This document shows, piece by piece, positions 21,543-61,400 of a stretch of DNA of 64,000 nucleotides. Both the position numbers and the translations under genes were made by a program. The notes below the pieces were generated by a model that made no database searches, was not told the origin of the DNA, and was given only the letters and a program-made list of their open reading frames with translations. How positions within the stretch are numbered: position 1 is the stretch's first letter; each line of letters starts with the position of its first letter. Source of the DNA: Reticulascus tulasneorum (taxonomy: Eukaryota > Ascomycota > Sordariomycetes > Glomerellales > Reticulascaceae); the NCBI GenBank assembly GCA_001557505.1, contig LSAX01000002.1:3906001-3970000 (forward strand), in the 5' to 3' direction.

Positions 21543-22583
21543 TGGAAGGTGTCATTCTAACCCGAGGATTGAGGTTGTGTCACAATGTGCTGGGCACCAC
21601 AGGTCAACATGTTGGACTTTGACACTTTCATCAAGATCTTGCAAAGGTTTGATCCTCTGTTAGTGAAAATGTATATTACAATCTGTACAAGTATGCCATA
21701 TGGCAAGCATTTATAGTCACTCGTTTCATTCAAAGATATCATTGTCTTTTACACATAGTCACAATTTTACGATGATTAGAATATTTGATATAACATAGTT
21801 TTCATTTCTTATACTCTCTAAAGGAAAAGTTGCCTGCAACTGACGAAAATGAATTCGCCCTTTTTTCGTCAAAGATCCATTGTTTTATACAACCCACTTG
21901 CCGAGGTACCTTTTGGCCAACACGGGACATCCCTCCAGGGCTACCGCAAACACAAGCAAGTAGATATAGAGTCAAACTTGAATTGCTTGAGCTTTTGAAG
22001 CCCTCAATACGACATATCTGCTTCTATTTTATATATTTCTATTGAAGCAGGGGTCCAGGCCCTTTGTGTAGATGCTCGTTAGGGAGAGTGGTAGAGGGGA
22101 GGTCTATACTTACGCCAACTTACGATACATCGCCAGCTCTTTTAGGCGTGATTGGCAGATAGTCTGTCCGGTTACCTGACCACTTGGCTAAAGTCACCTG
22201 ACCTTTGGTATGGTGAAGCCACATGCAGAGGCATAGCCACCCCCTCCCTCTCTTCTCCCTCCCCAGGCAGACTGCCATAACTACCTACCTACCTACCTAA
22301 CTAGGTAGACTACCTATACAGTTATATGACAAAAAACACTTCATGTATTAAAGCTATCTATTTTGCCTTGACATGCTTGAAGATATAACTGGTTTGCTTT
22401 GCTTTGCTTGTTTGTTTGCGTTGGATAATTTTTAAATCGCTCTGAATTTGCTGCTGCGCAACACCTCTCGGCAGCATTGCGGCTGACGGCTGACCGCATG
22501 CCCCGCAAAGACAACATTGCGCCCCACGACTTGCAGGCGAATGTGAAGAGATCCGTTATGTCTTCATATGATCTTGCGACGAC
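21543..22583. other. Intergenic region
   Basis: Between the CAP gene and the NACHT gene on the same strand. It holds a CTAC microsatellite at 22281-22298 and otherwise AT-rich sequence without a recognisable gene. Confidence 0.5.
22281..22298 (+). repeat. CTAC tetranucleotide microsatellite
   Basis: About four and a half ctac units, followed by a short inverted-like ctaggtag stretch. Confidence 0.7.
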
Positions 22584-25500
22584 ATGAAGAAGGTAAAGAA
22601 AATCACGAGGCTGTGGCGACAGAGGCGGCAAGAAGAAGAAGAACTGCAGAGTCCGTCATCGGATGGCGTGTCTGTAGCACCCAAGTCGACCCCTCCACAG
22701 CAAGACGCGGCTGAAGGCGGCCCCAGCAACACGCCTCCCATCCGTACGCATAGCAGCGGAGTTCCAGCAGTCAATGATACGCTCTCCGGAAAGCAGACGC
22801 GCGGATTACATGTGGTTCACAACCCTCTAGCATCAAATGTCGACGTTGACATCGTATTCATACACGGCCTAACAGGGGGCTCCTTCCAAACATGGAATCA
22901 TCCAACTTCCGGGGTCTACTGGCCTACCACCCTGCTTCCTCGCGATATCCCAGGTGCTCGAGTCCTCACATTTGGGTATGATGCCGATGTCGTCAAGCTA
23001 TTTGCTTCCGTCGGGCAAGGGACGCTACGTAACCACGCCGCAACCCTAGTAGCGGATATTGCATACTTGCGGCGCGGCGAACAGGGGAGCTGGAATCGTA
23101 AGATCATCTTAGTGGTGCATAGTCTCGGCGGGCTTATTGCCAAGAAGGCTTTGTGCATCTCCTGGGAGTCCGTCGACGAGACCCATCGGCAGCTGGATGC
23201 TTGCGTAGTCGGCGTCTGCTTTCTTGGAACGCCGCATCGTGGTTCTGGGAAGGCCGACTTTGGCAGCGTGGTTGCACGATCTCTCAGGGCTGGAGGTATG
23301 AGGGTCAACACTCGCATTGTAGACGTTCTGAAACCAGAATCCGAAGGCATGTCCCGCTCTTTATCTCACGTTGATGATTTTATAATAGTCAAAGTTCGGC
23401 TGACAAATTCGTACAGTACTCGCCGACCTCCAAGAGTCTTTCAGTCTATGGCTGCGAAGAAACAGTCATCGCTTCGGGCTTGCCTGCTTCTTTGAAGAGC
23501 ACGAGTCCCCGGGAGTCGGTATGATTGTTTCCAAGATGACGGCGACTATTGAGGGTTACACGTGTCTCCCGATTGCCAACAACCACAGGGACATGCCCAA
23601 GTTCGCATCTTCTGAAGACCAGGGATACCGGCGAATTATATCCGAATTAAAGTCATGGCTGTATCGACCAGCAGAAAACTCAAACAAGAATGCTGTTGAT
23701 CCCGGGGAACAAAGTTCAAGTGCCACGCCAGAGATTCTGGAGATGCGCCAGGCATGCCTCAGGGCCTTGTCGTTTCCAGAAATGTATTCACGCATCGAGA
23801 GTATTCGAAGTCCAGCGGAGAAGACCTGCCATTGGTTCCTCCAGCATAGTACATACCGTTCCTGGTACAAGCAAGGACAGGGTATTTTATGGCTCCTAGG
23901 TCATCCAGGAACGGGTAAGAGTACACTGATGAAATACGCAATACAGAATACCCTATCCAAGGAGAAAGAGACTGCGGACATGACCGATCTTAATATGTGC
24001 TTCTTCTTTTATGGTCTCGGGGATCCTCTGGAGCGAATACCTGAAGGCCTCTTGCGCTCGCTTTTGCATCAATTACTTCAAAGGGTTCCCAATGCTCTTG
24101 ATAGGTTTGTCCAGATATATGGACAACGGCAAAAGTCGGTTGTAACTGGTTGGAAATGGCATACTCAAGAGCTTTTGACCTCGCTCGAAGAGGCTCTTGC
24201 CAATGCACTTGAGATGACAAATGTTCGCATCTTTGTGGATGCCTTAGATGAGTGTGCGGCCAATTCTGACGGAGACGATGAGACAGAAGCCATCAGAGAC
24301 TTGATCACTCGCTTTCACCAACTCGAGGCAAAATTTTGTGACGCGAAACATCGATTCAGTGTCTGCTTTTCTTGCAGACATTATCCTAAGCTCGCACGAA
24401 TCAGCAACGGTCTTCGGATCGTTGCGGAGAAAGAAAATGGGACAGACATCAGGTCTTATCTACGACAAGAACTATCCTGGAGTCTTGAAGACCATGACGG
24501 CAGTCTTCTGGATATCCTCGAAGATGCTATTGGAGATCTTGCAAATGGTAGCTTTCAATGGGTCAAGCTCGTAACGGCAAAAGCCGTCAAAATGTACGAC
24601 GCTGGCAAGAGCAGGTCAGCAATTCTCACCGAGATTCGATCTCTGCCACAGGACCTCTCAGCCCTATACGAGAATATTCTCTCATCTATTCCAGAGGAAG
24701 ACCAACAGCAGTCACTGAAACTGTTCCAGTGGATCTGCTTCTCCCAGAAACCTCTCTCAATAACAGAGCTCCGCCTAGCCCTGAACATCACCGTGGAAGA
24801 GAAATACACTTCTATTCGGGAGCTTGAGTCGCTCGCAACTTTTGTTTCGACAGATGATGAGATGAAACGAATGCTCTTGGTTCTTACAGGGGGACTTGCA
24901 GAATTGAGAAAGCCATCAGAAGATGAATATTCAGATTCCGAAGATTCCCTCCTGTCGAACTCCTCTTCTGCTTCAATAGCATCGTTACACTCGGTGTATT
25001 CGGGAGTAGATCCGATATCACAGAATGAAAATCTTAAATCTGATGAATCTGATGAATCTAATTCTGAAGATCTCGATTACGAAAATCTTGGATTGATCAA
25101 TCAACTCCAACGGACAGACCCTCCCATGCCAATTTTAGCAGAAGGTTCAGAAGGAATCGTTTCTGTTTCGGTCTCTATCAAATCAAAAACGAGCGTGAGA
25201 AGCGGTATATATGAACGACCAATGGAAGAGGGTGCCCCCACCGAAGATGAGAGGAACCCTAAAGTGTTTTTCATCCACCAGTCAGTGAAAGACTACTTTC
25301 TCCGACGAGGATTCAGTCATCTGCATCCAGAGATCTTGGGCACTGACATTGCATTGTTTGAGGGCCATAGCCGTCTTCTGTCAACATGTCTTTGGTTCAT
25401 CACCGTGAAGGACGTATTGGATAGCTGGGAAGGCATTGTGTCATACTACGGCGTCGGCGTCAGCAACATGGGCGTCAGATGCATTAAGGTCTTGAGAACG

Positions 25501-27198
25501 TTCCAAAGATTTCAGCGGATTACACTGGAAATACTACTGGCGTGGCAGAAGAAGACAGAGAACGCGACGGAAAAGATGCTGTATGATGCTTTGGGCGCGG
25601 TATATGAAACCTGGCCTATCACCGATCGATTGTACTTACGTCGCGAACTTTATGACTTCGGCGGCCGAGCAATGAAGGCATACATGCAATCATTGCTAGG
25701 TATTGCATTATCCGACTCGCCAGACATGCTTGATTCGAAGATCGGTGCCTCTCTGGACAGAGTCATCATCTGTGGCATTCATATGATCCAGTTGAGCACC
25801 CAACCATACTACACTATATTGTCATATTCCATGCGAGCATGGGCGATGCATGCCTCTGCCGCTCTCAGCACCGGGGTCGAATACCCAATAGATTCTGTAT
25901 TCGCCGCGTTTTTCACTCGGGCCACCCAGTCTCTGCTGGATTTCATGAGGATTAATGGATATTTACAGCACCTAGCAGCCTATGTGGAGCAGCAAGGTGT
26001 CATGGCTGGGCTTCTGACCGGTAGTGCTGGTCGACTGCTTCCAGATGCAAAGAACATTTTCGGTCAGACGCCGCTGCACAACGCAGCAGCGGCCGGCACA
26101 ACCGAAATAGCAGCTCTCCTACTTGAGCGTGGGTCCGCAGTTGATGATGTGGATGAATGGGGCATGACTCCCTTGGCTCATGCAGCTAGAGAAGGGGAGC
26201 TAGCTGTTGCGGAACTACTCCTTCGGCATGGCGCAAATTCTAATATGGTAAACCACGAAGGTTGGTCGGCGATGCACTGGGTGGCAAGCGCGGGAGATGT
26301 TCCTGTAGCCGAACTGCTGCTCTCGCATGGTGCTAATATCGAACTTGAAAATGACGATGGCCTGACGCCTCTATGCTTGGCCATTAACAACTGGCACGAA
26401 GGCTTTGTTCGCATGTATGTTGGAAAGCTTGATAACTTCACGCATACTTCAACAATCAGAGAGGCAAACGTTAAAAGGGCACTCAAATCTGCCGCATGGC
26501 AAGTCAACACCCTGAAACTTCTCCTTTCGATTGAGCCTCAGCCAGAAGTCGTCAGGGTACGAGATCCGGAAGTAATCTGCCAAATGATTCGCGGGAGAGA
26601 TTATAATGCTGTTCAGCTACTTATCCAAGATTACCACTGGGTCTTGGACAAGAAAACGGAAACTGGGACCACTCCACTGCACCTTGCCGTGTTGCTTAAG
26701 GTTCAATATCTCGACCTGCTGCTAGCCCAAGATGGCGTCGATATCAACGTCGAGACAGATGAGGGCACTGTGCTATACATGGCTGTTGGACTATTTGTTG
26801 CCAATCGGAAACTTTTTCACCAGCACCACACTCTGGCAATGATTCTGAAAGTACCTGGACTCGACCCAAATAAAGGCATTACGGCAAGCGGCAAGACTCC
26901 ACTGCATAATGCGGCGGTAGCGGGACATTTGTGGGTTATCAAGGCACTTCTTCGACACTCTGCTATTGATGTAAGGCGTGCAGACAAGGACGGACTCACT
27001 CCCGCAGACTGGACACGTCGGGCCTTGCGTGGTCTGGATGATGAGGAGAAGGAGTTGGAGGACATTACGCTGAAAGATGGTCCGGCACGGCTAAAGGAAA
27101 TCGCCCGCAAACGGAGGAGGCTCGAGCGAGTTCTTGAGACAATACAAGGCCAGGGTCAAAGTACAGAAGAGACAGATACAGACGAGGCTGGAACCTAG
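22584..27198 (+). CDS. STAND-type protein: alpha/beta hydrolase - NACHT - ankyrin repeats (1,514 aa)
   Basis: Exons 22584-23346 and 23417-27198 close in frame. The intron has a GC donor (GAAG|GCATGT) and a TACAG acceptor; it joins KPESE to VLADLQESF as expected for the family. Residues about 75-280 form an alpha/beta-hydrolase domain of the SERAC1/PGAP1-like kind, with VFIHGLTGG, the nucleophile elbow HSLGG at 179-183 and FLGTPHRGSG. A NACHT NTPase follows: Walker A GHPGTGKST near 416-424 and Walker B IFVDALDEC near 526-534. An acidic, Ser-rich insert lies near 755-820. Two ankyrin blocks lie near 1133-1260 and 1335-1450. Such fungal NLR-like proteins are thought to sense non-self and drive an effector domain; here the effector would be a putative lipase or esterase. 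All NTPase motifs look functional. Confidence 0.88.
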
Positions 27199-28277
27199 AG
27201 CTGCCGACTGACAGAGACCAAGATTCCCGCAACGCCGCGGGGTAAGCAATTGATAAATATAGAACGCCTATCTCATAGATTTCGTTTTAAGTTTGGGAAT
27301 TGAAGCAAAATATGGCCTCGGCTTTGTACGATTATATTTGCTGGTATGTTTGCTATCTAACCCCCGGTCCTCCCGACACTCGTTGAAATCGATAGTCTCC
27401 TTGATCTCATTCTCGATGTTCTGGTCTAGCCGGATCCGCCGTAGGTTTGCCACGGGAAGAATTGACGAATGGCATTTGTACGAGCTGCTTTGTGACTTGA
27501 CTACGTCTACAGCTTCGAGTTGTGACATTTGCTCCCGAAATCAAGACCGGAGAGGATATCTAACTGCAATAGTTAAGGCTGAATGGATCATATGGGGCTT
27601 GCATGTCATGAACGTGCATTGTCATGCGGAGGAGGCGAAAAGTCCTCTGTTGAAGCATATTCGAATTTTCCACCTCTCCACTCCATGAGATATGAATATT
27701 GGCCCTGTAATGCCCATACCTCGCAAGCAGAAATTTCGCATCCTGTCTCGCTTTCTTCGGATAGCGTGGGGGCGGAAGGATTGGCCTAAAAGAAAGACGA
27801 CAAAGAAATTCACAATTGAAAGTAAAAGAAACCTCGTACCCACTGTGACTGCAGGTAGGTAGCTAGGGCTGAGCCACATTCGCTGCATCATCCCACGGCA
27901 TCTCCCCTATCGACTCATCATACGTCACGAATCCTCCGTAATTCATTAGGCACTCTCAATTCGCACATGAGAAATCGTTTTCCCCTAAAAACACAAACCA
28001 ACGCCGTAAACACTGTTTGATGTTTCATTTCATGAAAATTTAGACGATAGCTCCTCAATTACAAAACCTCCCGCGAAAGATCTTCACAAGCAGGCCAAGT
28101 CAGCGTTCTGTGCCCCTCTGTGTAGGAAGTACTTGTAAATTTGTACTTGTACATCCACAGAGACCCGCCTCGAACACCGAACGCCGGTCGAGGACCAGCT
28201 GCTTTAGTTTCCTAACATGCGATACGTCTGTACATGTCCTTCGATCAGAACGACCTTACCACTAGACAGAAAGGAAC
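27199..28277. other. Intergenic region
   Basis: Between the NACHT-ankyrin gene and the second HET gene on the same strand. Short open frames on both strands show no protein features. Nothing further seen. Confidence 0.5.
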
Positions 28278-30407
28278 ATGGGTCCTTATCAGTATTCGCC
28301 GCTGCCCGAAGACCGGCGGCACTTCCGCCTGCTGCAAATCGTCCATAAAGGCGAAGACGTGAACACCGTTGGCGCGCCCGAACTTTCGGTGGAGCTGAAG
28401 ACATTCCCACTCAACGAGGCGCCGCCCTACTGGGCCTTCTCGTACACGTGGGGCTCGCCGCGCTGCGGTCCGAACGGCGAGGAGCCAGATCCCGCTTTGC
28501 AGGCAAGCGTCACGATCAAGTGCAACGGTGCGCCCATACAGATCGGTGAGAACCTCCACGACTTCCTGTGCCTCTCGCGCGATGGTGGCCTATTCATGTC
28601 GTCGGTGTCCGTCCAAGACGGGAGTGCGAGCTCGTGGGTCGAGCCGTTCACCAATCTCACACCCGGATCAGTGGATTGGCGCGGGGCTCGCACGGCTTAC
28701 CTGTGGATAGACGCTCTCTGCATCAACCAGGAGAGCCTCGAGGAACGCTCGCAGCAGGTCCGGCTGATGAGCGCCATCTACGCGCTAGCGAAGCACGTCC
28801 TCGTCTGGCTCGGCCGCCAAGCGCCGCCGCCTGAGACCGCCTGGGCCTTCAAAAGCTTCCTGCCCCGACTCTTCGACCTCGCTAGGGATAAGCCCGAAAT
28901 CATGGGTCAGAGCACCATCGACTTTGAGGATGGCAAGGCTGTCGACGCACTCGGAGCTGAAGCCTGCGCTCGATGGCGGGCCGCCTACCCGGAGCTCTTC
29001 ATCTTCCTCGCACGCACCCGATGGTTCCGCCGCGGCTGGATCGTGCAAGAGGTCATTCTCAAGGACTCATTAGACGTGACTATGCTCTGCGGCACCGAGG
29101 CGTTTTGCTTTGAATATTTCTTGGGGCTGATGACGATTCTGTTCCTGGGGCTCAGGTCTGGCAGCGTCTTAATGCTGCGTATAAAGTTGTCCAGGTTTGA
29201 CCAGGAAGGCCCCGGCCTGTGGGCGGCGCCGTCCTCGACGCTCCATACCTTAGATACGCTGAGGAAAGTGTCGCGGCTTATATACTCTAATTCGACGCGG
29301 ACCATGACGAAATGGCAACGCGTGCTGAAGCTGGTCGCCAACATGGGTCGCAGTAGCTTTACCGATCCCCGAGATCGCTTATTCGGCTGCTTGGGCTTAA
29401 TCGAGGCTATTGTCCCTAAGAAGGATCTGGACTCCGTCGTGCCTGACTACACGCGCTCGAGAGCCGAGGTCATGACGACCTTCGCGCGCCTCCTGTATGA
29501 AAACATCTACGATCTCGAGTACATGTTCTCTCTGGCCGGCTATGATCCCGCATCAACGAGCGACCTACCGTCGTGGGTTCCCGAGCTTGCGTTTACGACC
29601 GGTCGGAGTGCCTTCAATGCCCTTGGCGTCAGGGCGAACTTCACAGGCAGCTTTAACGCCTCAAAACTCCTCCCCGTGCCCCGGTGCCAGGTAAAGGTGG
29701 ACAGCAGGGCGCTCGTGCTAAACGGAACGCGACTTGACGTGGCCGGCGAGCTGGTCGCGTCTCAGAAACCGCGCCGCGTGTGCGCCGAGTGGATAATCAA
29801 ATACTGCGAGCAAGACGATATTTATGTCCCGACGGGCCAGGGGCGCCCGGAAGCAGTAATCCTAACGCTCAGTATAAACAACAACAATGTCCAGAGACGG
29901 GCAGACCAGCTCAACCACCCCAGTGCCAGCGCAGGTCACGTCGCATCCACGGCGCGGAACTGGTACCTGCAACTTCTCGTAATAATGCTGAGGAACGACC
30001 TCGTGCCAAAAGACTCCATGGTCGCCCTGACGGCCGCGGCCAAACGCCATCCTGACTGGGTGCCGACCTCCGCCGAAGTGACTGCTGCGGGAGAGAGCAC
30101 AATGGACGATAAGCCCACGGTTAAAACCCTGATGGGGAACGTGTGGGACAACCAGATTTCCACCTTCGTCCACGACCGCCGACTGTTCCTGACCGACGGC
30201 GGCCTGCTCTGCCTGGGGCCGAAGCCCGTGAGGAGTGGCGATGAGGTGTGGATCGTGCGCGGGTCACGGGTTCCCATACTGCTGCGTAGGGCCGAGGACG
30301 GCGACGGCTACCACCTTATTGGGGAGACGTACGTGCACGGAGTCATGTACGGGGAGGCCGTGACCGAAGAGTTCGAGCGACAATTCGCCCCCGTCAAGAT
30401 TGTCTGA
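28278..30407 (+). CDS. HET-domain protein (709 aa)
   Basis: Single exon. The HET domain covers about residues 45-260, with PYWAFSYTWGS, TAYLWIDALCINQESLEER, HVLVWLGRQ and TRWFRRGWIVQEVIL visible in order. It belongs to the common stand-alone HET type (TOL-like), different from the subgroup at 10744-12774. After the domain come a helical region with a DPRDRLFGCLGL motif and a beta-rich C-terminus (residues about 620-700) with YHLIGETYVHGVMYGEAV, the usual end of this family. The third positions are more G/C-rich than in neighbouring genes. Domain order and length match full-size members, so the gene appears intact. A role in vegetative incompatibility or defence-linked cell death is expected from the family only. 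Confidence 0.9.
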   Translation: MGPYQYSPLPEDRRHFRLLQIVHKGEDVNTVGAPELSVELKTFPLNEAPPYWAFSYTWGSPRCGPNGEEPDPALQASVTIKCNGAPIQIGENLHDFLCLSRDGGLFMSSVSVQDGSASSWVEPFTNLTPGSVDWRGARTAYLWIDALCINQESLEERSQQVRLMSAIYALAKHVLVWLGRQAPPPETAWAFKSFLPRLFDLARDKPEIMGQSTIDFEDGKAVDALGAEACARWRAAYPELFIFLARTRWFRRGWIVQEVILKDSLDVTMLCGTEAFCFEYFLGLMTILFLGLRSGSVLMLRIKLSRFDQEGPGLWAAPSSTLHTLDTLRKVSRLIYSNSTRTMTKWQRVLKLVANMGRSSFTDPRDRLFGCLGLIEAIVPKKDLDSVVPDYTRSRAEVMTTFARLLYENIYDLEYMFSLAGYDPASTSDLPSWVPELAFTTGRSAFNALGVRANFTGSFNASKLLPVPRCQVKVDSRALVLNGTRLDVAGELVASQKPRRVCAEWIIKYCEQDDIYVPTGQGRPEAVILTLSINNNNVQRRADQLNHPSASAGHVASTARNWYLQLLVIMLRNDLVPKDSMVALTAAAKRHPDWVPTSAEVTAAGESTMDDKPTVKTLMGNVWDNQISTFVHDRRLFLTDGGLLCLGPKPVRSGDEVWIVRGSRVPILLRRAEDGDGYHLIGETYVHGVMYGEAVTEEFERQFAPVKIV

Positions 30408-42509: not shown

Positions 42510-43250
42510 ATGACAAATTTCGTTTCGAGTAGCGACCTCTACGATGCGGTGCAGACCGGCGATGTTCGTAAAGTCCGGGCGTATATACGATCCGCGGAAG
42601 AAGCTGGCGAAGACATCGATTGGGACATGAACAAGCACCGATTCACGCCGCTGACACTGGCCGCAAATCAAGGGTATACTGCCATCGTCAACGAGCTCCT
42701 GGAAGCCGACCCAGGTCCCACGCTCACCGAGTTGAGTGTCAAATGGATGTATACGCCTCTCATGTGGGCGGCGCGAAATGGCCACGAGCAAATTGTGCAA
42801 GCGCTGTTAATGGCGGATTCCGATAAACAACATGTGGACATGCAATCAACCATTGACGGTGATACAGCGCTTTTGAAGTCTGTGCAGAAGGACCAATGGG
42901 GAATAATGAACATATTGCTGAGCTTCAACGCCAGGGTTGATATCATCAACCAGGGAGGTGAAACCGCACTACACCGCGTCATACAGAGTCAAAACTGGCA
43001 TTACGTAGCAAAGATCGTTACTGGGAAGAATGCGCACATCGCCGCGCAGCAGCGTGACAGTGCTGGGAACCTTCCATTCCATCTTGTGGCACAACTCACT
43101 GTGGGATTGGATACAAAGAAGAAAATGGCTAATTCGCTGCTCGGAATCGGGGCAAAGAAGACAGATCTAACCGGATTAAATCGCACGGTAATACAAGTAG
43201 CGACGGACAGTGGCGATTCGCAGTTTGCAAACTTCCTTGCTGCTCTGTAA
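42510..43250 (+). CDS. Ankyrin-repeat protein (246 aa)
   Basis: Single coding exon from the ATG at 42510. Five or six ankyrin repeats cover almost the whole protein: DLYDAVQTGDVRKVRAYI, FTPLTLAANQGYTAIVNELL, YTPLMWAARNGHEQIVQALL, DTALLKSVQKDQWGIMNILL and ETALHRVIQSQNWHYVAKIV. There is no enzymatic or membrane segment, so it is probably a cytosolic binding protein. It stands head-to-head with the ankyrin gene at 39850-41289 and upstream of the ankyrin-subtilase gene. A small intron in the 5' leader is likely (near 42450-42492). Confidence 0.8.
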   Translation: MTNFVSSSDLYDAVQTGDVRKVRAYIRSAEEAGEDIDWDMNKHRFTPLTLAANQGYTAIVNELLEADPGPTLTELSVKWMYTPLMWAARNGHEQIVQALLMADSDKQHVDMQSTIDGDTALLKSVQKDQWGIMNILLSFNARVDIINQGGETALHRVIQSQNWHYVAKIVTGKNAHIAAQQRDSAGNLPFHLVAQLTVGLDTKKKMANSLLGIGAKKTDLTGLNRTVIQVATDSGDSQFANFLAAL

Positions 43251-43765: not shown

Positions 43766-46039
43766 ATGTCGCATACTCCACTAGGTCGCGCAGCAGACAA
43801 TGGTGACGTCGAGAAGATGAAAGTTCTCCTGGAACGTGGTGCGGTAGTTGAGCAGCGATTCGCCAAAAATTTATGGACACCTCTACGCAGAGCGGCGAGG
43901 CACGGCCATGCCGACGCAATCAAACTACTCATAGATTGGAAGGCTGACGTCGACACTGCAGACTACCAAGGAGAGAGACCTCTGCATTCGGGGGCAAAAT
44001 GGGATCATGTTGCTGTAATCAAGGTTCTCCTAGAGGGGGGAGCAGAAGTGAACATTGGAGATGATGAAGGAGTGAGACCTCTGCATTTAGCGGCCAAGCA
44101 TGGCAAGGTCGATGCAATCGAGACTCTTCTGAATGGGAAGGCAACGGTTGACATTCGGGCCCATGACAGACGCACACCTCTGCATTCTGCAGTAGACGGC
44201 GGCTCAGTTATTGCAGCGAAGGCTCTTCTGGGGGGGAGAGCGGATGCTAACGCTCAAAACAAAGTCGGAGAGACGCCACTACACTGTGCAGTGCAATCCA
44301 GTAGTAGTAAGATGGTCAAGGTTCTCCTAGAAGGAGGGGCTAAGATTGATGTTCGAGACAAAAGCGGAAAGACACCCCTGATCTTGGCGAAACAGAGTGG
44401 CGATACTAATATAGAGGCTCTGCTCCGTGCACATTCAACTGCCCCCACTATTGCACCACAGCCAAAGCAGCGGTCGAGTTCGGGATCGGAACATGAAGAT
44501 ACAAAGCCCTATCACGTCACCGCGGACGTTGATTCGGACGCCTCCATCTCGGATAACGGTTGGCCCCTCTGCCCGCGCAATCTCAGCTTTGATTTCATGG
44601 AGCTTCTGATTGCTCAGCATCTAACAGAAAGGATTTTCTCTAGAAACCCTGAGCCGAGACAACCCCTATGCCCTTTTATTCGACGCCGAATCAGCTAAGG
44701 AGATGGAGTAAGTACTAACAACTACCGTCATGCTCGCGACGTGTTATGGATGTCCAAATCCACGGGTTGGTGATGTTGAAAGAGTTGGCTAATAAATCAA
44801 CAGAAAGAGTTCGGAATGGCTCCGTGACTTCATAAGCTTTCGCAACCGCTTACTTGGACCGTTTGACTCTGACACCAATACCCGAGTCCGAGTCACTATC
44901 ATTGACACAGGAATTGACACAACTCATCCTTTTCTCAAGAAACAAGGTTGGACAGTTCAGTTCCCTCATTCCTTAGCGCCGTTGTATAAAGATTTCGTTT
45001 CAGAGAACACCGAGCCTGTCGACAAAGATGGCCACGGGACTTTCATTGCAGGGCTCCTTCTACAGTTGGCACCGGATGTTGAATTGTCGGTTGCTAGAAT
45101 AGGGAAGACAAGGAAATCGATGCGCTCAGATGCGGATATAGACGATAAGATTGCAAAGGTAATACCACTTTCAATTTTAAGCTCGTCTTCCACCACGAGC
45201 CCATCCACTTCAGCTCTCTTCGAAGCTTCTCCACCAGGCGCAGTTGTTACCGAGACTCACTCTGTATGGGTACTTATCACTCGGTGTAGGCAATTAACCA
45301 CGCCAATAAAATATGGAAAACTGACATCATTTCAATTTCATTTGGCCTACAGCAAGAGTCTACCAAGATTTCTCGGGCTATTGAGGAAGCTGCGCGGCCG
45401 AAGCGTGAAAGTGAGCAAGCTGAGACGGACAAGCTGAAGGAAGTCATAATTCTTGCAGCCTCGGGGAACTCTGGAAATCGGGAGAGGATATCCTTTCCAG
45501 CGAGAGAACGTTTGGTCTTCCAGATCTGTGCTGCCGATCCGAACGGTTTCGCGTCCACAATTAGCCCTCCGTCGAATTTGTCTGGATTTTGCTTTAGCAC
45601 GCTCGGCCATTCTATTCAATCCATTTGTTCGTCGGCGCTACAGAAAAAGCTAGGCAAGGACGGCCTCATTCTCCCTCGGGGCACCATGACAGAGAGTCAA
45701 GGGGAAGGGCCTTGGACCTGCATGACAGGAAGTTCGTTCGCTACACCGATCGTTGCTGCTCTGGTTGCAACACTATACCAGTTCTACGACGAGAATTATT
45801 CAGACTTCGATATGGGACGTCAAGAGAACTTTAAGTCTGTTAGAGCCGTGTACAATATGCTGCTGAAACTAAGCCGAGCGCCTCAGCCCAACGGAGACCG
45901 TTACCACTATCTAGATCCGCTGGTGACCCATCCTCAAAGTACGAATGGGTGGTTCAGGTATCCTGTACATATGAAAACAGGACTACATGAGTTCTTTGCC
46001 AGGCAGCTGTGCTTAGCTATTAGCAACGGAGACAATTGA
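43766..46039 (+). CDS. Ankyrin-repeat / subtilisin-like serine protease fusion (653 aa)
   Basis: Exons 43766-44558, 44644-44707, 44804-45158 and 45290-46039 close in frame. Residues 1-235 hold seven ankyrin repeats (for example RPLHLAAKHGKVDAIETLL). A polar linker follows, then a peptidase S8 domain (about 310-640). Its triad is complete: Asp320 in TIIDTGIDTTHP, His363 in DGHGTFIAG, Ser553 in TGSSFATPIVAAL, plus the oxyanion Asn464 in AASGNSGN. There is no signal peptide, so the protease acts inside the cell. In fungi, intracellular S8 domains serve as effector or activating proteases in allorecognition; in Podospora het-Q2 cleaves a gasdermin-like partner. The next gene is convergent and only 193 bp away. 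The first intron has a GTTGGC donor and is inferred from phase and from the TCTCTAG acceptor. The start could lie one short exon upstream. Confidence 0.87.
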
Positions 46040-46232
46040 CCCAAGTCAAAACAATGGATCGCCGGTATGGAAACGAGAGTTCTTTAATTTAGATAGAGAC
46101 TGAAAAGAAATAAGCACTGTAACTATCCTTCAGTTTCAATATGGCCGCGTTAACCACCTGTTCTCTACTAGTGACTGGAAAGCACGCCAATGCAAAAAAA
46201 TTCTTGGTGAGCGCGATATTGGCTTACTTTAT

Positions 46233-47153
46233 TTACTCTGCAGCAACTACGACTAGGCACCCCTTGCCATCATCCTCGTCTAACGCTTTCATTTTCATGT
46301 CTCCAGCGGGGAGACTGGAGCCGAAATCAATCTTGGCGAGAAAAACATCCTCGATTTCGTCCTCGACGGCTGCTGGCGGGACCTTGGGAGCAGTGTCCCT
46401 TTTGCTGCTCTTCCCGGAATCCTCATCCGAGCTGTCCGAGTCATCCTGTCGAGAACCAACGCCATGCAAATCCGCGCCAACGACGTCGTTGCGCAACTTG
46501 ATCTTGTTGCGCCAGCTCACGCGGACCTTGCGTAGTCTATAGGCAAACACGAAGTCGGCTTTTGGCTGGCTCTCCTCTGATAAAGCTGTCGATCGATCGA
46601 AGCTGCCTCCTGCCCCAACCTCTACCGCTCCTCCGGTTCCCGGATCTCCGCCGGCTTCTGCCGACCCCCCCGTCTCTCTCGTGTCATAGTAGGTCGCCGG
46701 TCCGGGCTGTCTTGCCACCTTGATGCCCGTGATCATGTAGACGGTCTTGCCGAATCTTTTGTTCTCTTTCAGCCAGTCCTGTACCTGTTTCACCGCCACA
46801 CTCTCCTTTGCATACGTCACATCCTCGCCCAGCTCGATAAAGTGTGTCTCCAGCTCGGCAGCCTCCCAGGTCTGAGTTAACTCCTTGGACGCGTGGCCAG
46901 AAAGCCGCGCGGAAGCTACATTTAAGAACTGAGCGAAGATACTTAATTCTGTGCTTGCGCCTCTTGACTTGGAAAGTTGCCAGTTTATCTTGGACGAGCT
47001 ATAGATGGTCGGGACCGAGGGGACTGACTGAAGCGGCGAGGCGAGGGAACGATACGGTATCCTGGGATTAGAGATGAGCTGGCCCAGCCGGATCAGCTGG
47101 TTGATCTTGTAGTCGGTGGATTGGAGGATGAAGTATGTTCTAGGCTCACCCAT
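46233..47153 (-). CDS. Gasdermin-like candidate, predicted pore-forming protein (306 aa)
   Basis: Single exon, no signal peptide. I cannot assign it with certainty. Its layout resembles the gasdermin pore-forming domain: an N-terminal strand-helix part, then a beta strand VYMITGIKVA (138-147), a Gly-rich flexible stretch (149-187) and a returning strand FVFAYRLRKV (201-210). In gasdermins two such strands flank a membrane-inserting hairpin. A Ser/Asp-rich linker (234-252) then connects to a short acidic C-terminal segment that could be a removable inhibitory tail. Similar fungal proteins with this strand-glycine-strand pattern are common. The gene is convergent with an intracellular S8 protease, the arrangement known for het-Q1/het-Q2. 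An unrelated fungal family is the main alternative. Confidence 0.5.
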   Translation of the reverse strand: MGEPRTYFILQSTDYKINQLIRLGQLISNPRIPYRSLASPLQSVPSVPTIYSSSKINWQLSKSRGASTELSIFAQFLNVASARLSGHASKELTQTWEAAELETHFIELGEDVTYAKESVAVKQVQDWLKENKRFGKTVYMITGIKVARQPGPATYYDTRETGGSAEAGGDPGTGGAVEVGAGGSFDRSTALSEESQPKADFVFAYRLRKVRVSWRNKIKLRNDVVGADLHGVGSRQDDSDSSDEDSGKSSKRDTAPKVPPAAVEDEIEDVFLAKIDFGSSLPAGDMKMKALDEDDGKGCLVVVAAE

Positions 47154-58427: not shown

Positions 58428-61400
58428 ATGCTTGTCTTGCAGCTACTGACTCTTCTGCCGTTGGCAGGAGGGGTTCTTGGCATCCAACTTAGAGATGGCA
58501 CACCTACCGGCGCCAAACAAAGCTTTATTCTTGAGGCAGCTCCAGTATAAATCCACCAATAAATCAAGGCATGGAGCTGATTTGCTGATATATGGTTGAT
58601 ATAGGGAGTAGATGTGGAGGCTCTATCAGCGAAACTTGAGCTGGATGGGGCTCGAATCCTGAACACGTATAAGACGGACATCTTTTCCGGACTGGCTATT
58701 GAGACCGATAAAGACAACATAGATAGTCTCCAGGCGATAAAAGAAATCTCCAGGGCATGGCCAAACGGCCGGGCATGGCTGACTCCGCAGGCGGCTCCCC
58801 AGATGCTTCGGCGACAAGACGCTCCCTACCCAAATTATTCTCAAAATTTGCACAAAGGGACTGGTGTCCAAAAGGCCCATGACGCGGGCATACTTGGCAA
58901 GGGCGCTGTGGTTGCGGTCATCGACACGGGGGTTGACTACAACCATCCAGCTGTGAGTGGCTTCGACCAACAATGATATCATGGGACAATAATTCTGAGA
59001 ATGATAGCTTGGAGGAGGCTTCGGTCCAGGTTTCAAGGTGGCGGGTGGTTATGATCTTATCGGAAGCTCAAGTTCGTTCGATACCCTCTATTACAATTGT
59101 TCCACACTCCTGACGATAGTCGCGTCACAGACTGGCCAGGTTCCGCAAAAAACCCTGATGATGTCCCTAACCCCGCCGGCCATCACGGCACCCATGTGGC
59201 CGGTATCGTAGCGGGCAAAAACGACTGGTAAGCTACTGGTGCTTCGTGCTACCGAATACAAACATATATTGATTCAACCGGCTAGGTTCTCTGGTGTTGC
59301 GCCTGAAGCTACATTGTTAGCCTACAAGATAGTTAGTGACTATAATGCCGTAAGCACAGCTGAAACAATCACTTCAGCGAACTCGACGATAATGATGACG
59401 TGTGCAGGGCTCTGATGACGCAACAATAATGGATGCAATGCTTATGGCCTACGAGGCCGGGGTAGGTTCCATTCCCGTCCGGCCATTTAAAGCAGCCTAA
59501 CGTCTTTCCAGGCAGATGTCATCACCCTCAGCTTTGGATCGGGGACTGGTGGCTTTGCTGATCCACCGCTGCCTACTCTTACTCAGAGGCTCGTCGATGC
59601 GGGCATTATCGTTACAGTTGCTGCGTCTAATTCCGGGTCGGAAGGACCATATAACTTTAACCCAGCCGCTGGAGCAAAAGATGTCCTCGGAATCGCCTCA
59701 TCCCTAGCTTCCACCTTAACCGCCAAACCGTTTCAATTGAACTTCATCTTAAACGGGAAGACTGAGACTTCTACCTACGGCTATCTTGAAGTACCTTACG
59801 ACCAAGTAGACACCTGGGAAGGGGCAGCTGGGGAACTTCTCAATCGGCCGATATACCCAATTGTTTTTGATCAGAATGCTACTAGTCAGCTATGCAGCAA
59901 CTCCCCGGCGACATTTCCAGATCTGTCAGACAAGATCTTGCTTGTCCCCTTAGGCGACTGCGACCAGCTGATCAAAGAACTTCATCTCGCGCAGGATTTC
60001 AACGCTACCAATGTTCTGTGGTATAGTAACGAGGCTATGTTCCAGGCGCCGTTTACATATCTAAACAATTATGAGCGTCCGAAGGCCAGAATAAGCTATG
60101 ACGCTGCAGTACGCATCATTGAGACCGTGAAAGCCGGCGGCGAAGCGAGAGCGGATTTCGGTGGTGACAAGAGCATCCTTGTCGGCGTTGAGAACCCTAT
60201 TGGCGGCCGGCCGAGCGAATACACGTCTTGGGGCCCCATGTACAACTTCGACATAAAGCCAGACATTACGGCTCCCGGTGGGCAAATCCTCAGCACGTTC
60301 CCAGACAACCAATGGGCTAGCATAAGTGGAACCTCCATGGCAACCCCGTACGTGGCAGGCATCGCTGCTCTGTATGTTTCGAAGTTCGGAGGGCGGTCTG
60401 TAAATGGACCGGATTTTGCAAAGAAGTTCGTCAAGCGCGTGATATCTAGCGGAACTGCTATCCCGTGGCAGACAACAGAGAACCCCAGGGTACCAACGGA
60501 CAACGGCTTTCTAGCGCCAGTTTCACAAGTAGGGAATGGCTTGATCGATGCCTGGAAAGTGCTGAGCTACACAACCGATCTCGACTTTGAAAAGTTTACG
60601 CTCAACGATACCCATCACTTCAGTAGATATCACAGCTTTGACATCATCAACAACGACGCTGTTGATGTCGAGTACAACTTCGAGTTGCAACCTGTAGCCG
60701 GGTACTACACAAAGCTGTCGGGCAAGGAAACGATTAGCAAGCTTATCAAAATCGAACCTCTGAGCATTGTTCCAAATGTTACTATTCCATTAGGAAAGAA
60801 GCTCAAGCCGGGACAGAAAAAGACGTTCCAGTAAGTTTGGATGCTGCCATTCATTTCCTTCACCAAGGCGCGGATAAGAATAATGATTTTCATCTTAGAT
60901 TTGCGTTCAACTACCCCAAAGGCCTGGACGAATCGCGCCTACCCTTCTATGGTGGTCAGGTGCTCATTTCTGGTTCCAACGACGAGAAACTGTCCGTGCC
61001 ATATCTCGGCGCTGCATTCAACGCTAAGGCTCAATTTGACACCATGTGGACAAACGGATATCCAAGGGCATGGATTGGTAGTACCGTTGTTCCAGATTCG
61101 CCGGCAAAGTTTGTCTCCTCCAAGACAGCCAGCTCCGGTGCAGATTCCCGCTAACATTTATTCTAAGGCTAGTGGTACGACCTAATAATCCCGAAGGCAA
61201 AGGTGAAGAGCCGTTGAGACTCTGGAATCAATTGAAGTGGGGCAGCGCTGAGCTTCGTTGGGATGTGAGTCTTCTCTCGTTGGCACTACATCATACACCA
61301 TTGCTGAGACCAGCGTAAGATCTTTAACCTGGGATTTAAAGAAAGAAATTGGGCCTACCCGCCGGTCGTAGGTAAGAATGGCTACGTTGGGTCTGTCGCA

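Follow-up and report, generated by a model that had tools for sequence, protein, structure and literature searches.

A gasdermin gene facing an ankyrin-S8 protease gene in Reticulascus tulasneorum: a likely HET-Q1/HET-Q2-like pair with a probably exchanged sensor

A fungal gasdermin paired tail to tail with an ankyrin-S8 protease

In a 64,000-nucleotide stretch of Reticulascus tulasneorum DNA (hereafter the window; C2:3906001-3970000, from a genome of 42.8 Mb in 35 contigs), the open reading frame (ORF) of a gasdermin and the predicted gene of an ankyrin-S8 protease converge, and together they very probably represent a HET-Q1/HET-Q2-like (Q2L) module, a likely cell-death pair for which ankyrin sensing, cleavage, and pore formation are proposed by analogy. 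This assignment is based on the kinship and predicted fold of the gasdermin, the open frame of the protease, the convergent layout, the presence of another pair of this type elsewhere in the genome, and linkage of both gene types in other fungi. By its homologues and introns, the DNA is that of a filamentous fungus. The tail-to-tail arrangement at a distance of 193 bp, as first described in a sequence-only reading of this DNA, is confirmed by the positions of the two stops at 46039 (+) and 46233 (-). As a type of fungal self-destruct pair it is already known, and the locus adds one more example; since fungal gasdermins clustered with proteases, ankyrin-fused ones included, are covered in reviews (PMC10197012 and PMC12881547), the module is not a new kind.

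By sequence homology over its core and by its predicted fold, the 306-residue protein is a fungal gasdermin, as had been proposed earlier. Here, profile matches were obtained to the solved structures of RCD-1 (E 7e-17) and HET-Q1 (9uv9; E 7e-7), with both alignments stopping at profile positions 211-213. Moreover, the 20 best PDB entries matching the predicted structure were all gasdermins rather than proteins of an unrelated fold, and included the bacterial entries 7n50, 7n51, 7n52, 8sl0, and 9a84. The layout that had been read from the letters can be recognized in the predicted structure as well, with a strand, a low-confidence loop (residues 160-190), another strand, a polar linker that is disordered over residues 218-257, and a tail at the C-terminus whose strands span residues 263-272, 286-291, and 298-303.

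This modeled anatomy fits with control by cleavage, though it falls short of proof. The linker (residues 216-262) is the likely place of cleavage in the predicted structure, and the C-terminal tail is likely inhibitory, judged by analogy. In an alignment of 29 gasdermin rows, the tail (263-303) is filled in 28 or 29 rows, whereas residues 234-262 are filled in 19.2 rows on average. Near-invariant positions in the tail are Asp276, Pro282, and Cys299 (each in 28 of 29 rows) and Asp292 (29 of 29), while Leu229 is likewise kept in 28 rows. Three points weigh against control by cleavage. First, the tail (2.57 bits) carries on average hardly more information per column than linker residues 234-262 (2.34 bits, a value inflated by columns that hold few letters). 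Second, the conserved cleavage site that the sequence-only reading had suggested looking for near residues 230-290 did not materialize, as the 29 rows share no such motif in the linker and the near-invariant positions are instead those of the tail, plus Leu229. Third, RCD-1 from Neurospora crassa, which by sequence and fold is the best-scoring solved relative, is activated by an allelic partner without cleavage (PMC12881547).

The last of these points raises the alternative of an RCD-1-like gasdermin that is triggered by a variant allele, uncleaved, with the protease serving some other role. In structural comparison, the alignment with RCD-1 chain 8jyx reaches residue 302, which gives the tail some counterpart in that protein. 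However, 91 residues extend past residue 215, among them a tail with near-invariant positions, whereas RCD-1 sequences align over the core only; S8 genes are also linked to gasdermin genes in other fungi, and we consider this alternative improbable.

The ankyrin-S8 protease gene

With an ATG at 43766 and its end at 46039 (+), the protease gene is predicted to comprise four exons that give an open frame of 653 residues. A Peptidase_S8 domain covers residues 313-574 (Pfam, E 1e-22), and the catalytic set is complete, just as the sequence-only reading had it: Asp (IIDTGID, position 318), His (DGHGT, 361), and Ser (GSSFAT, 551), together with the oxyanion Asn (AASGN, 460). The seven ankyrin repeats counted before are again seven by eye, with up to 6 stretches recovered per Pfam model. 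They begin immediately, and by hydropathy only, no hydrophobic N-terminal stretch precedes them (best 12-residue mean near the start, 0.67), in line with the earlier claim that a signal peptide is lacking. The start of the gene agrees with that of a paralogous protease (see below), where the first ankyrin repeat also comes soon after the start. Furthermore, intron 3 of this gene and intron 2 of the paralogue both lie immediately ahead of a corresponding AI(N/Q) stretch in the S8 domain. The unusual donor of intron 1 (GTTGGC) is the weakest point of the gene model.

A Pfam scan of the 653-residue protein (E up to 1) returned only ankyrin and S8 families, and no NACHT or NB-ARC domain. The suggestion that ankyrin repeats stand in place of the core of a NOD-like receptor (NLR) holds for the architecture, but not as a novel variant, given that this class is described in PMC10197012 and PMC12881547. 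Traits of Q2L proteases are present in a complete S8 set, a putative intracellular location by hydropathy, repeats beside the protease domain, and a gasdermin gene well within 10 kb. A decayed or rewired allorecognition locus, with a constitutively active protease or a primed gasdermin, might be considered here instead of a working sensor pair, as a pseudogenization model has been published for het-Q (PMC10197012) and a HET-domain gene and an NLR-like gene lie in the window as well. Yet both frames are open, and the full catalytic set and the gasdermin tail are present, making such a locus quite improbable.

A second pair in the same genome

Using three gasdermin queries (the window protein, its paralogue, and the distant homologue P0028; counts are lower bounds), we found a sole other gasdermin in the genome, at C2:180616-179768 (-). 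This one, too, converges with a predicted ankyrin-S8 gene (C2:172860-179622, +; three exons, 2215 residues) located 145 bp away. In the paralogous protease, a giant ankyrin array (42 PF00023 stretches counted over 1710 scanned residues) is followed by the S8 domain. Thus, both gasdermins found have a convergent ankyrin-S8 neighbor at less than 1 kb.

S8 genes are common in this genome (of 203 candidates, 90 were scored and gave 100 matches), which lends some weight to the notion of chance neighbors, namely an ordinary S8 protease next to an unrelated gasdermin. However, with 100 to 203 S8 places in 42.8 Mb, the number of S8 genes expected at 1 kb or less from any one position is just 0.005 to 0.010, and since both gasdermins are so paired, the pairing is more than chance. 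With S8-gasdermin linkage recurring in other genera, we regard mere chance as extremely improbable.

Pairing in other fungi

Among 31 gasdermin homologues, 19 of which carry NCBI names, an S8 relative was found on a contig of identical size for nine named ones and for none of the 12 others (9/31 overall), with co-location judged by equal size of the longest contig. These are from Colletotrichum truncatum, C. navitas, C. falcatum, C. tanaceti, C. orchidophilum, Cercophora newfieldiana, Emmonsia crescens, Histoplasma ohiense, and Magnaporthiopsis poae. Foremost are three pairs with consecutive locus tags (MAPG_02595/02596, I7I48_02183/02182, and EMCG_04299/04298), followed by three on contigs of 18.6, 47.9, and 85.9 kb, while the remaining three, on contigs of 0.58 to 6.8 Mb, indicate linkage only. 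The check proposed in the sequence-only reading, whether the two genes stay neighbors in other genomes, thus turns up linkage, with consecutive locus tags in three cases. Moreover, over 10 gasdermin-protease pairs, the distances among the gasdermins track those among the proteases (r 0.878, a value reached in 1 of 20000 permutations), which is what linked descent would produce.

Counting against a conserved pairing, species descent alone would give the same correlation, and 10 of the 19 named and all 12 other homologues had no S8 match on an equal-sized contig. Because the S8 search used a database clustered at 90% identity, with 7987 candidates scored, the missing matches in these 22 homologues say little. 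As a separate observation, DUF7580 (PF24476), described in Pfam merely as a domain of unknown function, occurs in 44 of 109 S8 matches versus 12 of 109 for ankyrin repeats (hand count).

The S8 tree and a probable exchange of the sensor

A tree was built from 87 S8 domains, and in it the window domain falls in a 41-row branch (Shimodaira-Hasegawa-like approximate likelihood ratio test [SH-aLRT], 99) that contains none of the 11 other labelled ankyrin fusions from outside this genome. Within a 25-row branch, it is joined by all nine contig-sharing proteases (SH-aLRT 86, or 96 without the long-branched paralogue). The partner domains in these proteases are of two types: weak TPR matches in most of the linked Colletotrichum proteins and in the one from Cercophora, and DUF7580 in those from Histoplasma, Emmonsia, and Magnaporthiopsis (above cut-off in P0045 and P0062, and by precomputed list in P0064). 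Since the window S8 domain sits with proteases that bear weak TPR matches or DUF7580, and away from the other ankyrin-S8 proteases, an exchange of the sensor is probable. Judged from the sequences, such an exchange most likely brought in the ankyrin part, once or twice in the history of this genome, and the S8-gasdermin core was probably kept as the sensor changed.

A grouping of the window S8 domain with ten members of the main ankyrin branch, all of them ankyrin-S8 proteases and chosen as a set after the tree was seen, was rejected by the approximately unbiased (AU) test (p-AU 4e-54).

Several points speak against an exchanged sensor. The trees are quick ones for which SH-aLRT is the sole support measure, the branch of the window row is long (0.84), and once nine long rows had been removed, no set comprising up to half the rows was listed as supported. 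Forcing the window and paralogue S8 domains together gave a p-AU of 0.114, and so a common origin stays compatible. In addition, the TPR matches of P0032, P0033, P0041, P0048, and P0053 lie below the Pfam cut-off, that of P0053 being barely a match, while the scan of P0049 gave S8 only, with no TPR. All told, we lean slightly toward a scheme in which protease and gasdermin would form a fixed execution core, with TPR, DUF7580, or ankyrin as a cartridge-like sensor in one gasdermin-linked S8 lineage, and in which one fungus would own two ankyrin-triggered switches, of about seven versus forty or more repeats.

Comparison with known systems and a proposed mechanism

According to section 15 of PMC10197012, gasdermin genes of fungi occur in clusters with protease genes in about 80% of cases, the share for S8 proteases being about 63%. 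Of roughly 1500 Q2L sequences described therein, one third have an annotated architecture, mostly with ANK, TPR, or WD40 repeats, and a subset are NLRs; PMC12881547 gives the same picture. The window pair shares its architecture class and gene clustering with these repeat-bearing proteases, for which the ankyrin class is named in PMC10197012. Nevertheless, it differs from other ankyrin-S8 Q2L proteases in the placement of its S8 domain in the tree. In common with HET-Q1/HET-Q2 from Podospora anserina, there is homology to the HET-Q1 core, an adjacent S8 gene, and a short C-terminal part past the core. Unlike that pair, the window protease has N-terminal ankyrin repeats, and the window gasdermin has a long acidic linker, then a 44-residue tail. 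The HET-Q2 likeness itself is taken from descriptions in the two reviews rather than from sequence. Bacterial gasdermins with neighboring proteases follow a similar two-gene logic (PMC12881547, PMC10197012).

With cleavage and pore formation inferred from HET-Q1/HET-Q2, the ankyrin part would sense a trigger, upon which the S8 protease would cut the gasdermin in the predicted disordered linker. The C-terminal tail would then leave, and the released N-terminal core would form pores in the plasma membrane of the very cell that makes it, leading to death.

Features of the pair and other genes in the window

The features of the gene pair are listed in Table 1.

Table 1. Positions of the gasdermin and ankyrin-S8 protease features within the window.
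Feature	Position	Strand	Basis or remark
Protease exon 1, about seven ankyrin repeats and polar linker, no signal peptide by hydropathy	43766..44558	+	Pfam, hydropathy
Protease exon 2 (predicted)	44644..44707	+	Frame-keeping splice sites; donor GTTGGC, acceptor CTCTAG, CTAAC upstream
Protease exon 3 (predicted), S8 domain with catalytic Asp (IIDTGID) and His (DGHGT)	44804..45158	+	Pfam, motifs
Protease exon 4 (predicted), remaining S8 domain with Asn (AASGN) and Ser (GSSFAT), C-terminal part, stop	45290..46039	+	Pfam, motifs
Protease introns (predicted)	44559-44643, 44708-44803, 45159-45289	+	Frame-keeping splice prediction
Intergenic gap, both stops facing	46040..46232		193 bp
Fungal gasdermin gene, 306 residues, single open frame from ATG to stop	46233..47153	-	Sequence and predicted fold
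Gasdermin core, residues 1-215, pore-forming domain by homology	46509..47153	-	Profile alignments to RCD-1 and HET-Q1
Linker, residues 216-262, Ser/Asp-rich, predicted disordered at 218-257, likely place of cleavage	46368..46508	-	Predicted local distance difference test (pLDDT) <50 for 218-257; alignment filling
Acidic C-terminal tail, residues 263-303, three predicted strands	46245..46367	-	Predicted structure, 29-row alignment

Two stand-alone ankyrin ORFs lie beside the pair (42510-43250, +; 40977-39850, -). The former, 515 bp upstream of the protease gene and running in the same direction, could act as a third component or else be a gene of its own. Farther away, NLR-like ORFs at 22572-27198 (+) show NPHP3_N/NACHT and ankyrin repeats, preceded by a match to alpha/beta hydrolase that is below cut-off; they overlap in two frames and are probably a single gene with an intron. 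A HET-domain gene (PF06985, E 7e-23) lies at 28266-30407 (+). The NLR-like, HET, and gasdermin genes are all within 25 kb, resembling an immune-gene island. A further S8 protease ORF (59491-60834, +), with no ankyrin match within it, is probably of the ordinary secreted kind.

Significance

What kind of stimuli act on the proteases that control fungal gasdermins is named a major open question in a 2025 review (PMC12881547). With the two gasdermins found each facing an ankyrin-S8 protease, and these proteases being of very different size, R. tulasneorum offers a small, clean system for probing what the ankyrin part may sense. Moreover, if the sensor was exchanged within a single protease lineage, sensing and killing may be separable by domain swaps.
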